This document shows positions 53,823-58,846 of a stretch of DNA of 64,000 bases, in pieces. The translations under genes were made by a program, and so were the position numbers. Numbering within the stretch: position 1 is the first letter of the stretch; each line of letters begins with the position of its first letter. Below the pieces are notes generated by a model that was not told the origin of the DNA, did not search any database, and saw nothing but the letters and a program-made list of their open reading frames with translations. Origin of the DNA: Candidatus Kapaibacterium sp. (GTDB taxonomy: Bacteria > Bacteroidota > Ignavibacteria > Kapaibacteriales > UBA2268); NCBI GenBank assembly GCA_013414795.1, contig CP058732.1, positions 1,835,950 to 1,899,949 on the forward strand, in the 5' to 3' direction.

Positions 53823-54716
53823 TTATTTAGCAAATGGCTTAATAAAAAGCAAAATCGATAGCCAATGTTTCAAAGTAATTGCAAGTTTATGTATCTTTGA
53901 AACTTTGATTTCTTTGTCGAAAACTCTAAACTTACTCAATTCAATTTTCTCCAACAAGCGGAAATATATTTCATCCATAACTTCTGCGGGAAATAATGTT
54001 ATCCTTTCGTCGGGATGTAAAAGGGAACGAGCCTTGTGGAAAAATTCCCTTGTTCGCTTGGTTTCGAATTCCATAAGTTCAACGAAATGGTCGTTGTAAA
54101 CCTCGTTAATCAAATCCTCCTCGCTGTAATCGAAATTTTGTAAATCTTCCAGAGGAATATAAATATAACCACGATCTTTGTCTTTCTTAACGTCCCGCAA
54201 AATATTTGTCAATTGCAATGCATACCCTAAATTAATAGCATAATTTCTCGTCTCGGCATATTTGTAACCAAAAATCTCAATCGTTATTAATCCAACAACG
54301 CTTGCCACACTGTAGCAATAGTCTTTAAGTTCCTGAAAAGTTTTGTATCTCTTTTGGAACAAATCTCGTCGGCAACCATCAATAAGAGTAACGATGTACT
54401 GCTTCGGTAAAGAGAACCGTTTTATGGCAAAGTACAAGGGATAGAAAATTGGACTTGGAATTGAATCGTTGTACAACTCATCAACAACAGCCAGCCAAAA
54501 CTTCAATCTTTTGTCTTTTTGAAGTGTTGACTTTTGGTCAACTCCTCCTTCGTCCACAATGTAATCTATGTAAGAAAAAAGAGAATAAATTGTGTTGATT
54601 GCCAATCTTTCTTCTTTGGGTAAAAATGAAAAAGCAAGTTGAAAGTTTGATTCTTTAACTTTGGGTGGTTCAACTCTTTCAAATGATGCCAAATCGAAAA
54701 CAGTCAAATGATTCAT
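53823..54716 (-). CDS. hpnD: Squalene/phytoene synthase family protein, HpnD-like
   Basis: 297 residues, all-alpha isoprenoid synthase. The two aspartate-rich regions are DYIVDE (about 51; Tyr replaces the second Asp of DDIVDE) and QLTNILRDVKKDKDRG (about 170), which hold the magnesium-diphosphate complex. With hpnC it would make presqualene diphosphate and hydroxysqualene; hpnE for the last step is absent here. It lies 3 bp after hpnC and 35 bp before nuoE. Confidence 0.85.
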   Translation of the reverse strand: MNHLTVFDLASFERVEPPKVKESNFQLAFSFLPKEERLAINTIYSLFSYIDYIVDEGGVDQKSTLQKDKRLKFWLAVVDELYNDSIPSPIFYPLYFAIKRFSLPKQYIVTLIDGCRRDLFQKRYKTFQELKDYCYSVASVVGLITIEIFGYKYAETRNYAINLGYALQLTNILRDVKKDKDRGYIYIPLEDLQNFDYSEEDLINEVYNDHFVELMEFETKRTREFFHKARSLLHPDERITLFPAEVMDEIYFRLLEKIELSKFRVFDKEIKVSKIHKLAITLKHWLSILLFIKPFAK

Positions 54717-54719
54717 TTC

Positions 54720-55643
54720 CTAAAAAAACGCATTAACAAAAACATAAACAAAATCGAAAATACTTAATTTAGGTCTTTTATGCAAAACAAGAAAGCCCAA
54801 TTTTTCCACCTTTGAAAGAACTCGCAATCCACCCAAAACAGTCGCATTAATTTCGTACCGAAGTCGCTGACTTTTCAAATGCCATACCAATTTCCAACCG
54901 TCAAATAAATAACCACGAGTTTTTTCAACCAAATCCCTTAAACACAATTCAAACTTATTCCTATTTTGTGCTTCAAAAATTGTTTGGGCATCTATTTTGT
55001 ATTTGATAAAAAACTCTTCTGGAATGTAAACCCTTCCTCTTTTCAAATCCACACTCAAATCTTGCCAAAAATTTGCTAATTGTAAACCAGTACAAATGTA
55101 ATTTGAAAACATAATGGTCTTATCGTTATTCTCATTGAATATTCTTAACACTAACTCCCCAACTGGATTTGCAGAAAATGAACAATAGTATTCCAAATCA
55201 CCCCAAGTTTTTGGTTGAACAAAATTCACATCCATTTTAAATGCTTGCAACAAACGCAAAAATGGGTCGAGCGGTAATTCTTTCTTGTCAATAGTATCTT
55301 TTAATGCTAAAAAGATAGGGTTGGAAATATGTTCGATATTTTTCAGTTCAACCAAATTTTTCTCCAATTGTTCGAGCATACTAATTCTTTCTGGATTAGA
55401 TAGTTGCAACACAGTTAAATCTGCTATATCATCAGCAAAACGTGCAAATGAGTAAATGCTATAAATGAATCTCCTTTCTACTTTGGGCAAAAGCAATGAG
55501 GCAACTGGAAAATTTTCATAATGTTGTTTTGTGAATTCTTCGCAATACTTATAAGCATCAAACAAATCGATGTTTCCGAATCTTTGACTATTCAATTCGA
55601 GTAACTCATAAAAAACATCGAATGAGTTTTTTGCAAATTTCAT
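54720..55643 (-). CDS. hpnC: Squalene synthase family protein, HpnC-like
   Basis: 307 residues with both aspartate-rich motifs, FARFADDIADL (about 67) and QLANFWQDLSVDLKRGRVYIP (about 187). It is a paralogue of the following hpnD; the two form the HpnC/HpnD arrangement leading to squalene for hopanoids or carotenoids. AAGAGA precedes the ATG. The 57-bp divergent gap to the response regulator gene holds a perfect palindrome. Confidence 0.85.
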   Translation of the reverse strand: MKFAKNSFDVFYELLELNSQRFGNIDLFDAYKYCEEFTKQHYENFPVASLLLPKVERRFIYSIYSFARFADDIADLTVLQLSNPERISMLEQLEKNLVELKNIEHISNPIFLALKDTIDKKELPLDPFLRLLQAFKMDVNFVQPKTWGDLEYYCSFSANPVGELVLRIFNENNDKTIMFSNYICTGLQLANFWQDLSVDLKRGRVYIPEEFFIKYKIDAQTIFEAQNRNKFELCLRDLVEKTRGYLFDGWKLVWHLKSQRLRYEINATVLGGLRVLSKVEKLGFLVLHKRPKLSIFDFVYVFVNAFF

Positions 55644-55666: not shown

Positions 55667-55686
55667 CTTTAATTTGCAAATTAAAG
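55667..55686. promoter_or_regulatory. Perfect 20-bp palindrome in the hpnC/response-regulator gap
   Basis: CTTTAATTTGCAAATTAAAG is identical to its own reverse complement. It presents TAATTTG (the local -7 core) to both strands, 24 bp before the response regulator ATG and 33 bp before the hpnC ATG. It reads as an operator overlapping divergent promoters; the binding protein is unknown. Confidence 0.55.
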
Positions 55687-55700
55687 AAATATCAAATATT

Positions 55701-56057
55701 ATGAAAAAAGTTTTAATAGTTGATGATTCAATAATTGCCAGGCGTATGATTCGCCAATTGATTTCCAAGTGGAACTTTGAAATCGATGAAGCAAAGAACG
55801 GAGTCGAGGCATTAGAAAAAATTCACACGACAAAATACGATTTAGTTTTTCTTGACTTACTGATGCCCGATATTAATGGAGTAGAAGTGCTTGAGAAATT
55901 GGCTCAAGAACACAATCAAACAAAGGTTGTGGTTATCTCCGCCGATATTCAAGAAACAACCAAAGCAAAATGTAAGGAACTTGGTGCAATTGCTTTCCTA
56001 AACAAGCCACCCAAAGAAGAAGAACTTAATTATGTAATTCAACAAATAATATCCTAA
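55701..56057 (+). CDS. Single-domain response regulator (CheY-like)
   Basis: 118 residues from ATG 55701; the in-frame TTG 55674 lies inside the palindrome and is rejected. A receiver domain and nothing else: acidic pair Asp8-Asp9, phosphoacceptor Asp52 in FLDLLMPD, Ser80, and Lys102 in LNKPP. With no output domain it must act by protein contact or phosphorelay. Its stop overlaps the CheC gene start as TAATG, with the kinase gene next. Confidence 0.93.
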   Translation: MKKVLIVDDSIIARRMIRQLISKWNFEIDEAKNGVEALEKIHTTKYDLVFLDLLMPDINGVEVLEKLAQEHNQTKVVVISADIQETTKAKCKELGAIAFLNKPPKEEELNYVIQQIIS

Positions 56058-56680
56058 TGAGTTTAACTCCAGAACAAATTGATGTAATTCAAGAAATGAT
56101 TAATATCGGAGTTGGGCAAGCAGCAAATTTGCTAAACTCCATTTCTGGCAAGCATGTCAAATTGTCAGTTCCCGAAGTTAAAGTTCTAAATCTCGAAATG
56201 CTCGCCCAAACATTAATCGACTTGGGATTTGAAAAGAATCTTTCCTGCGTTACATTAATGTTTTCTGGTCTAATCAAGGGCAGTTCAAAAATCATATTCT
56301 CTACCGAACAAGCATCTAAATTAGTTTTTGCATTCACCAGCGTCGAGACAAACGAATTAGATTTTGATGAAATCCAGGCGGAAACACTTTCAGAAGTTGG
56401 TAATATTGTACTTAATTCTTTAGTCGGCTCTTTTGCCAACATTTTAAATACCACATTAAATTATTCTATACCTGTCTATGTTAATGGAAACATCGACCAA
56501 ATTTTATCCTCAGATATAAACATATCAGAAAAAGGGTTAATACTTTACGCCAGAACACATTTTCAAATCGAAAATCTCCAAGTGGAGGGGGATTTTATCC
56601 TATTTATAGACCTAGAGACTGTTCCAATGTTTATCCAAGCAGTTAATAAATTTTTAGAAAAAGGCGGTTTTTTCAATTAG
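56057..56680 (+). CDS. CheC-type response regulator phosphatase
   Basis: 207 residues. Two CheC/CheX/FliY active-site motifs are readable. The first is Asp9-x3-Glu13-x2-Asn16 with Pro39 22 residues on. The second is Glu-x3-Glu-x2-Asn with the Pro again 22 on (near residues 112-142), differing at its first position from Asp/Ser. CheC removes phosphate from CheY. Here it is coupled to a receiver gene and a kinase gene rather than to chemotaxis genes, so it probably resets the neighbouring response regulator. Confidence 0.9.
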   Translation: MSLTPEQIDVIQEMINIGVGQAANLLNSISGKHVKLSVPEVKVLNLEMLAQTLIDLGFEKNLSCVTLMFSGLIKGSSKIIFSTEQASKLVFAFTSVETNELDFDEIQAETLSEVGNIVLNSLVGSFANILNTTLNYSIPVYVNGNIDQILSSDINISEKGLILYARTHFQIENLQVEGDFILFIDLETVPMFIQAVNKFLEKGGFFN

Positions 56681-56684
56681 GATT

Positions 56685-57866
56685 ATGGAAAAACTCACTC
56701 AACAATTCAACTTATTTAACGCTGTACCTATTGGTGTTTGTGTAATTTCAACAAATTTTGATATTGTTTTCTGGAACAAACAATTAGAGATTTGGACAAA
56801 CATTAAATCCCCCGATGTTATTGGAAAAAAACTCATAGAAGTTTTCCCAAATCTAAACCATCCTAAATATATTGTTCCAATTTCCTCTGTCATTAATGGT
56901 GGACCACCAGTTGTCTTTTCAACACAACTCCATAAAAGTTTTTTTCCTTCCTATTTACCAGATATGCAGCCTCGGCTTTTACATACAACTGTTTCCAATT
57001 GGAAATGTGCTTCAAAGCACGAAACCTACGCAATTATCTCTGTTGAAGATTATACATATCTATCCTATCGCATCAAAGAACACAAACGAATGAGAGATGA
57101 AGCATTAAAAGAATTAGAAATGAGGAAAAAGGCAGAAGCAGAACTTCGTGAATCCGAACAAAAGTTGAGAGAACTTAACGCCACAAAAGATAAATTCTTT
57201 TCAATCATTGCACACGATTTGAAAAATCCTATCGGAGCATTCAAAAATGTGCTTGAACTTCTTTACCAAAACTTCAACGATTTCTCGAAAGAAGAAATTC
57301 TTGAATTTATCGAACCATTAAGAGAAAGTTCTGCTCAATTATTTGCTCTGCTGGAAAATTTACTCTTTTGGGCTAGATCCCAAACGGGAAGGATCCAAAT
57401 TGAACCAATAGAATTTGACCTTTGCGACTTGATTCGTCAAAATATTAGTCTCCTTAAACTCCAGGCAGAAAATAAGCAAATTACAATCGAATCGGATTTG
57501 CCAGAAAGAATACTTGTCAACGCAGATATTAATACAATAACAACAGTTTTAAGAAATCTAATTAGCAATGCAATTAAGTTTACTCGATCTGGGGGAAAAA
57601 TAGTTGTTTCCGCAAAGGTTGTCGATGGCTACGCAGAAGTATGTGTGGAGGACAATGGTATTGGAATGTCCAAAGAGACAATGGAAAAATTGTTTAGAAT
57701 TGATGTCCATCACACTTCTCTCGGAACGGCAAACGAAAAGGGTACTGGCTTGGGATTGATTGTTTGCAAGGAGTTTGTTGAAGCAAACAAAGGAAAAATT
57801 TGGGTCGAAAGTGAAGAAGGCAAAGGAAGCAAATTCTATTTTACGGTTCCATTGGCTGAAATTTAG
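56685..57866 (+). CDS. PAS-domain sensor histidine kinase
   Basis: 393 residues, no membrane segment, so a soluble sensor. PAS-like region about 8-125, a short coiled coil about 132-165 (RKKAEAELRESEQKLREL), then dimerisation with phosphoacceptor His177 (FSIIAHDLKNPIGAFK) and an ATPase domain with N box LRNLISNAIKF, G1 EDNGIGM and G2 GTGLGLIVCKEF. It begins 4 bp after the CheC gene. It should phosphorylate the receiver 55701-56057. The stimulus is not deducible. Confidence 0.93.
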   Translation: MEKLTQQFNLFNAVPIGVCVISTNFDIVFWNKQLEIWTNIKSPDVIGKKLIEVFPNLNHPKYIVPISSVINGGPPVVFSTQLHKSFFPSYLPDMQPRLLHTTVSNWKCASKHETYAIISVEDYTYLSYRIKEHKRMRDEALKELEMRKKAEAELRESEQKLRELNATKDKFFSIIAHDLKNPIGAFKNVLELLYQNFNDFSKEEILEFIEPLRESSAQLFALLENLLFWARSQTGRIQIEPIEFDLCDLIRQNISLLKLQAENKQITIESDLPERILVNADINTITTVLRNLISNAIKFTRSGGKIVVSAKVVDGYAEVCVEDNGIGMSKETMEKLFRIDVHHTSLGTANEKGTGLGLIVCKEFVEANKGKIWVESEEGKGSKFYFTVPLAEI

Positions 57867-57922: not shown

Positions 57923-58846
57923 ATGAAAAAACTTACAATCCTTACAGTTTTGTTTGCCCTATTAACTTATTCTAACATTTTCTCCCAAGATGAAAAAATA
58001 GAAAAGGATACTGCAATCGAAACAAACAAACCCTATGAAATTATTATCAGACCATTTGGTATGTACAAATTTTTCAACCCGAAGCATTATAAACATCCAT
58101 CAATAACTATTTTCTCTGGTTTTAACAATACTAATTACAGGAACATTGTCCCTGAACCAAATTTCAATACTCAAAACTTTGCTTCGTTGCATCTTGGAAA
58201 AACAAAATTGACAACAAAAGAATTCGAAAACGGTCAAAAACTTAATGAGATTTCGAGGACGGGTGTTTTTATAAGCAATTTCTCCTCGAAGTGGCAAATC
58301 CAAAACAATTCGAACATTAATGCCAAAATGTGGCGATTTGGTCTCGATTTTGACGATGGTGGTTTTGGATACAATCTTGGTTCGAAAAACTTTTTGTTTT
58401 TTACACACGGGGCTTCGCTAATTTGGTCCAAGTTCGATGTTGAAAACCTTCAAAATTTTCCTCAACCCGACAGTCTTCGCTTTTCAAGATTTTCCGAACA
58501 ATTCAGATTTGGGACAGCATACCAAAGTGGAATTTCTCTCTTATTGTTCAACACTTTTTCGCTTGACTTTCGTTACGAAAGAGCCATAGTTTTTCCAGGT
58601 CATAAGTTTTGGTATTGGCTTGGAAGTTCTGTGGTTGAAGTTTTAGCCCAAGGATTGCTCGATGAGTTTATTTATGAAGTAGCCAAATCCAGTCCTTACG
58701 CTGCACCAGTGGTTAAAGGGTTACTCAAAGGTGCTCTATCCTATGGTATTTATGAATTACGAAAAGACAAAATGAACTGGCCATTCAATACCGAACCGCC
58801 ACTGTTCAACGATAACTTTAAAATTGGTTTAACATTTATCTTTTAA
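57923..58846 (+). CDS. Exported protein, probable outer-membrane barrel
   Basis: 307 residues that I do not recognise. Signal peptide about 1-21 (NIFSQ). The body has alternating aromatic/polar strands (WRFGLDFDDGGFGYNLG, NFLFFTHGASLIWSKF, FSLDFRYERAIVF) and a C-terminus ending in Phe (IGLTFIF), suggesting an outer-membrane beta-barrel. A helical insertion with GLLDEFIYEV lies near 237-275. Very strong ribosome site AAAGGAGGG. It is 56 bp after the histidine kinase and 3 bp before the epimerase gene. Confidence 0.65.
   Translation: MKKLTILTVLFALLTYSNIFSQDEKIEKDTAIETNKPYEIIIRPFGMYKFFNPKHYKHPSITIFSGFNNTNYRNIVPEPNFNTQNFASLHLGKTKLTTKEFENGQKLNEISRTGVFISNFSSKWQIQNNSNINAKMWRFGLDFDDGGFGYNLGSKNFLFFTHGASLIWSKFDVENLQNFPQPDSLRFSRFSEQFRFGTAYQSGISLLLFNTFSLDFRYERAIVFPGHKFWYWLGSSVVEVLAQGLLDEFIYEVAKSSPYAAPVVKGLLKGALSYGIYELRKDKMNWPFNTEPPLFNDNFKIGLTFIF

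Follow-up and report, generated by a model that had tools for sequence, protein, structure and literature searches.

A CheC phosphatase between a single-domain receiver and a PAS histidine kinase: a candidate kinase-bearing variant of the PdcABC switch

What would a CheC phosphatase do between a single-domain receiver and a PAS histidine kinase, in a neighborhood that holds no chemotaxis genes? The question is raised by a 64,000-nucleotide stretch (hereafter the window, at 1.84-1.90 Mb) of the genome of Candidatus Kapaibacterium sp., which consists of one contig of 2.66 Mb and contains a single CheC match. Open reading frames, sequence and Pfam matches confirmed the first-pass annotation of three genes in one tight plus-strand unit, at 55701-57866. 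A single-domain, PdcC-like receiver of 118 aa (55701..56057; Pfam Response_reg, 103 bits) is followed by a PdcB-like CheC phosphatase of 207 aa with two intact E-x2-N sites (56057..56680) and by a PAS-HisKA-HATPase histidine kinase of 393 aa (56685..57866), whose N-terminal PAS domain of ~140 aa (56685..57104) is common to the third genes of the module. The receiver stop overlaps the CheC start in TAATG (56055..56059), where the two codons have one base in common, and 4 bases separate the CheC stop from the kinase start. The unit had been drawn from 55667, which lies upstream of the receiver ATG at 55701; the same Met opens the receiver of a locus from the same genus (L018).

The trio is divergent from two genes of the squalene/phytoene-synthase family, hpnC- and hpnD-like, and L018 is arranged likewise. 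These two genes (53823-55643) score just under the hopanoid equivalog cut-offs, at 232.4 of 278.6 bits for the hpnD-like and 249.5 of 250.45 bits for the hpnC-like product. Directly 3' of the kinase, positions 57923-58846 encode a 307-aa protein that starts like a signal peptide and has no match in Pfam or NCBIfam; at the equivalent position, L018 has an open reading frame of comparable length and start.

A co-occurrence search bore out the trio as a recurring unit. A profile search of named genomes returned 279 confirmed CheC relatives, and the best 80 of these were analyzed. In 74 of them the genes are closely spaced in the order receiver-CheC-third gene, and in 76 the third gene carries the 140-residue PAS of the trio. 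Six loci depart from the full layout: a receiver-CheC fusion near a contig end (L042), a fusion accompanied by a PAS kinase (L104), two loci with a methyl-accepting chemotaxis protein (MCP; L055 and L065), one at a contig edge with the receiver outside the available sequence (L077), and a CheC for which neither neighbor was found (L083). The family picture leans on cyanobacteria, since 54 of the best 80 loci belong to Cyanobacteriota by title or rank; Nitrospirota, Nitrospinota and Ignavibacteriota/Bacteroidota come next, and one or a few loci each were assigned by title to Myxococcota, Thermodesulfobacteriota, Planctomycetota and Fibrobacterota. Two loci were sampled twice (L018 is L034, and L019 is L052), and with duplicates merged the 86 CheC rows discussed below represent 84 loci, the 84 receivers 82, the 81 third genes 79 and the 15 plain kinases 13; the CheC proteins of L086 and L089 are identical. 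Within the phylum, relatives of the window CheC occurred in 9 of 395 genomes sampled. Five of the nine have the trio (the genome studied here, G357, G160, G156 and G287), a sixth (G290) has a receiver-CheC pair at a contig end, and in G072, G166 and G387, which we take to be Hymenobacter-like, CheC lies within a CheA cluster.

The window CheC is a predicted member of the CheC/CheX/FliY phosphatases. It scored 35.1 bits against Pfam CheX (cut-off 27) and 32.8 bits against Pfam CheC (cut-off 22), and its nearest solved structure is Thermotoga maritima CheC (E 1.9e-11), with a FliY also among the nearest. Both E-x2-N-x22-P sites are present, as D9-E13-N16-P39 and E109-E113-N116-P139. According to excerpts of PMC3035606, CheC, CheX and FliY reach into the active site of the receiver with an Asn and an acidic residue, and the conserved E and N of the window CheC fit such an insertion. 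The first position of the motif is Asp at site 1 and Glu at site 2, rather than Asp or Ser at both. This Glu (E109) had been read as the mark of a tuned or weak site, a suggestion that did not survive comparison with the family: the site-2 first-position column holds G in 72, E in 8, D in 3, S in 2 and A in 1 of 86 CheC rows, while the catalytic pairs E13/N16 and E113/N116 are invariant in all 86. Because that column is free and the catalytic pair fixed, a Glu there is unremarkable, and a weak second site was ruled out on the same grounds; judged from this alignment, the site-2 first position does not define the CheC family of the trio. We also considered a part in CheC-CheD adaptation, which was dropped because CheD (PF03975) had no match in the genome (97.65% complete); the Bacillus subtilis and T. 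maritima controls did match.

The receiver has D9, the phospho-acceptor D52 and K102, which are kept in 84 of 84 family receivers, together with a signature of A81-D82-I83-Q84 and K-P-P. The four residues A-D-I-Q, which follow a conserved Ser/Thr, occur in 81, 82, 82 and 84 of the 84 receivers, respectively. The stretch is absent from the CheY-like receivers and CheB of the same genome and from the CheYs of G072, G166 and G387. It is present in the L065 receiver, whose third gene encodes an MCP, and judged from this locus the signature seems to go with CheC and not with the PAS domain. The window receiver is 42-43% identical to those of Burkholderia and Caballeronia (95-97 bits); it scored 78-82 bits against the CheYs that G072, G166 and G387 encode in their CheA clusters, 61 and 44 bits against the two CheY-like receivers of its own genome, 68 bits against the Phytobacter receiver and 55 bits against that of Agrobacterium.

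Very likely, the CheC acts on the receiver of the trio, as suggested by their adjacency in 74 of 80 loci as a full trio and by natural receiver-CheC fusions in L042, L104 and L146, the last followed by a PAS-GGDEF gene. An AlphaFold model of the L042 fusion (pLDDT 92.6, pTM 0.82) retrieved the CheC fold (1xkr, E 9.6e-15) and receiver folds in a fold search. On the Chitinivibrionales contig of L104 (749-3351), an unfused receiver and an unfused CheC stand in a row with a receiver-CheC fusion and a PAS kinase, which amounts to two copies of the receiver-CheC pair.

The third gene combines a constant domain with an exchangeable one. Its product in the window matched HATPase_c (92.5 bits), HisKA (37.3 bits) and PAS (24.3 bits), each above cut-off, and is predicted to be soluble. 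A single N-terminal profile of ~140 residues matched every one of the 76 PAS-bearing third genes in the 80 loci, with 124-229 bits, and none of the other open reading frames of L022-L025 and L032-L111 matched it at iE<1e-3; the open reading frames of L018-L021 were left out of this search. What follows the PAS varies: among 81 third-gene rows, the window included, HisKA and HATPase occur in 15, the same domains plus REC in 46 and GGDEF without a kinase in 16, with 4 unclear, in a tally backed by Pfam on example rows and including two cyclase rows, L086 and L095, in which the sequence ends within the gene. In a tree of the CheC proteins only 2 changes between kinase and cyclase are needed; the tree holds the 40 rows, out of 89, that were left by thinning at 80% identity, was built with a quick method, leaves 19 of 37 inner branches open and does not include L146, L147 or L153. 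By this comparison the constant part of the module is the PAS and not the kinase, and since a cyclase can replace the kinase, phosphorylation of the receiver by the kinase is hardly what holds the module together.

The PAS and the trio-type CheC also occurred together at the level of genomes. Strong matches to the profile (>130 bits) were found in 27 of 32 whole genomes searched, several of which had contributed rows to it; the five without a strong match are G410, whose third gene encodes an MCP, and four family members that lack a trio-type CheC. In the phylum sample, 6 of 6 genomes with a trio-type CheC and 0 of 4 tested family members without one had a strong match, with profile A2 (16 rows) having been built from loci of several genomes later searched, including 4 of the 6. 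In G290, the PAS kinase and the receiver-CheC pair lie on different contigs. A model of the PAS domain (pLDDT 90.8) has an ordinary PAS fold, for which the best structural alignment was to the photoactive yellow protein family (1mzu_A, Z 13.9, rmsd 2.2 over 102 residues). We took this match as one of PAS fold only, and light sensing was rejected as its meaning.

The receiver-CheC pair is also found without the trio PAS, as seen from the third genes of L055 and L065 and of two plasmid records. In the cyanobacterial loci L055 (3419-6475) and L065 (5618-8646), an MCP without this PAS follows the pair and replaces the PAS enzyme; the genome of L055 has a PAS kinase at another site (L142), divergent from CheA. 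Plasmid records of Agrobacterium vitis and Novosphingobium have the pair after CheB-CheR-CheA, and their third genes did not match the trio PAS profile. A trio-type PAS (51-175 bits) was found in the plasmid records of Nostoc sp. C052, where the pair is divergent from CheA, of Phytobacter, where it accompanies a diguanylate cyclase, and of Azospirillum, where the order is CheC-PAS protein-response regulator.

The cyclase-ending loci resemble an operon already in print. Excerpts of a review (PMC9899790), which cites Wang et al. 2022, describe pdcABC of Burkholderia thailandensis (BTH_II2363-2365). The diguanylate cyclase PdcA is inhibited when phosphorylated PdcC binds to its PAS domain, and PdcB, a phosphatase with a CheC/CheX domain, raises PdcA activity by taking the phosphate off PdcC; a table in the same review matches pdcA and B. 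cenocepacia Bcam2836 to one protein. Records of B. cenocepacia, B. stagnalis and Caballeronia show the order receiver-CheC-PAS-GGDEF, and from gene order and domain make-up we infer that the Burkholderia loci are pdcABC orthologues, the B. cenocepacia record carrying no locus tags. The cyclase rows of the trio family match the same PAS profile as the kinase rows. The window-type PAS aligned with that of Phytobacter at E 3e-16 (27% identity over 133 columns), and only the first half of the profile matched the Burkholderia-group PAS, with 32-34 bits and iE 1.6e-10 to 7.6e-10 in a small set; the PAS link to Pdc-type proteins is weak.

These observations led us to read the window trio as a PdcABC-type switch in which a histidine kinase takes the place of the cyclase, a reading to which we assign a probability of about one half. 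The phosphate on receiver residue D52 would come from the kinase of the trio, which would close a negative feedback loop, or else from a different kinase, CheA for example. Once phosphorylated, the receiver would dock on the PAS of the kinase encoded by the third gene and restrain that kinase, and CheC would take the phosphate off the receiver and so free the kinase. The PAS as docking site is proposed by analogy with PdcA, and the kinase form, including its direction of control, may work like the cyclase form; the source of the phosphate, the signal and the downstream target of the kinase are likewise conjectural. Among the matches listed from the open-licence literature, none describes the kinase form of the trio, an earlier mention being possible; going by the excerpts above, the cyclase form is in print as PdcABC, and what is new here is the kinase-bearing variant. 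The earlier idea of a compact resettable module thus stands in part, supported by conservation of the trio and by the pairing of CheC with the receiver. Its definition as a set of kinase, substrate and phosphatase fared less well, because a cyclase replaces the kinase in 16 of 81 rows and PdcABC, as excerpted, runs the opposite way.

Several observations weigh against a PdcABC-like reading. The receiver-CheC pair occurs without the trio PAS, the G290 genes are split between contigs, the PAS link to Pdc-type proteins appears weak, and the receiver scores against Phytobacter and Agrobacterium are low. A kinase with HisKA and ATPase domains could also just phosphorylate the receiver, and the hybrid kinases of 46 rows, each with a receiver of its own, may point to a relay. 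The trio might then be an ordinary two-component pair, in which the PAS kinase senses a signal and passes phosphate to the receiver, CheC removes it again and receiver-phosphate has its target elsewhere. HisKA and HATPase_c above cut-off in the window kinase and kinase types in 61 of the 81 third-gene rows are consistent with such a pair, as is a CheC that differs from the B. subtilis adaptation type, given that the che cluster has its own receivers and CheZ and that no CheD was found in the genome. We consider it unlikely, since the kinase is missing from 16 rows in which receiver, CheC and PAS stay, the excerpted direction of PdcABC is from receiver-phosphate to PAS, and no output partner is visible for the receiver. 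Control in the trio probably does not run from kinase to receiver alone.

The first-pass annotation had placed the trio away from chemotaxis genes, and this holds for the window only, because the genome has flagella and a che cluster. Searches for CheW/CheA, MCP and FliM/N gave no match within the window; genome-wide, they located CheA at 1.517 Mb, CheW at 0.301 and 1.631 Mb, an MCP at 1.628 Mb and FliM/FliN domains at 0.635 Mb. The cheA, cheW and mcp matches, near 0.30, 1.52 and 1.63 Mb, are not linked to the trio. The CheA cluster, ~375 kb from the window, contains CheR, two single-domain receivers (CheY by position), CheZ, CheA and CheB, so that, judging by gene content, chemotaxis appears to be served by receivers and a phosphatase of its own, and nothing found ties the trio receiver to this CheA. 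The window CheC is unlikely to be the chemotaxis phosphatase of the genome because the che cluster has CheZ, though this match barely exceeds its cut-off (33.1 against 30.7 bits). A single MCP was found in the genome (L017, 6984-10097); it has 1037 aa and several HAMP-type repeats and lies ~110 kb from CheA. In G160, the trio adjoins a FliM gene (Pfam) and fliL-, fliN- and fliO-like open reading frames named by reading (L019, 3447-8377); the genome studied here has the same flagellar open reading frames (L028, 11599-14062) with no adjoining trio.

Of the 49 module-bearing genomes searched for CheA, 46 gave a domain match (G357 and G397 being one genome in this count), among them 12 of 12 searched genomes with a cyclase-ending trio (12 of 16 such loci), and CheA lies in the flank of 34 of the 80 loci, mostly Nostocales by titles; in one locus, L147, CheC and then PAS-GGDEF stand beside CheB and CheA. 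Three module genomes, G418, G419 and G420, had no CheA match, and G419 carries the L146 fusion with PAS-GGDEF. Of the 395 phylum genomes, 107 have a CheA match, as do 8 of the 9 family members, and this base rate, with the shared ancestry of the genomes, led us to drop co-occurrence as proof of a chemotaxis role; the link between CheA and the module is suggestive only. An accessory chemosensory or motility branch, in which CheA would phosphorylate the receiver, CheC would serve as a second phosphatase and the PAS kinase would add a further input or output, would accommodate these CheA counts, the FliM neighbor in G160, the FliM and FliN domains of the genome itself and the A. vitis and Novosphingobium gene runs in which receiver, CheX and a PAS kinase or protein follow cheA, but it seems quite improbable given the distant che cluster with two CheY-like receivers and CheZ of its own, the frequency of CheA among related genomes, the three module genomes with no match, and the absence of the trio PAS from the third genes of the A. 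vitis and Novosphingobium runs.

Returning to the PdcABC-like switch, we propose somewhat more tentatively that receiver and CheC form a portable phospho-gate for one kind of PAS, switching whichever enzyme follows that PAS in at least eight bacterial phyla. Histidine kinases, hybrid kinases and diguanylate cyclases would be the enzymes so controlled. If so, in the kinase form a receiver would gate a histidine kinase by way of the kinase's sensor domain, and the arrangement would be a self-limiting loop should the kinase also be the phosphate donor. A stray CheC would become a member of a widespread and recognizable module with a defined sensor domain, whose mechanism is published for one form, and the prediction follows that in the commoner kinase form the phosphorylated receiver controls the histidine kinase via the PAS. 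A function would also be suggested for genes that are annotated only as 'chemotaxis protein CheX' or 'CheC' and lie beside a response regulator, such as those in the plasmid records of Nostoc, Agrobacterium, Novosphingobium, Phytobacter and Azospirillum.

Three known systems can be set beside the trio. T. maritima CheC (PDB 1xkr, 2f9z) likewise has two sites, with E-x2-N at each. The window CheC differs in lying outside any che cluster in a genome with no detectable CheD, in reaching only 72 of 250 bits, far under the cut-off of NCBIfam CheC_Thtogales, and in its Glu at the site-2 first position. REC-CheC proteins, which excerpts of PMC2222644 give as a class of response regulators in Pseudomonas syringae, also bring receiver and CheC together, as do the fused forms within the trio family, whereas the window has separate, overlapping genes. 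Compared with PdcABC, the window trio belongs to another phylum, its PAS identity is low, its third protein is PAS-HisKA-HATPase without GGDEF where PdcA is PAS-GGDEF, and control by the receiver, described for PdcA, is proposed for the window kinase. Both place a single-domain receiver, a CheC/CheX phosphatase and a PAS-bearing enzyme in one operon, and the relatives of PdcABC in Burkholderia and Caballeronia have the same order, receiver-CheC-PAS enzyme, with a receiver that carries SADIQ or SADVQ.
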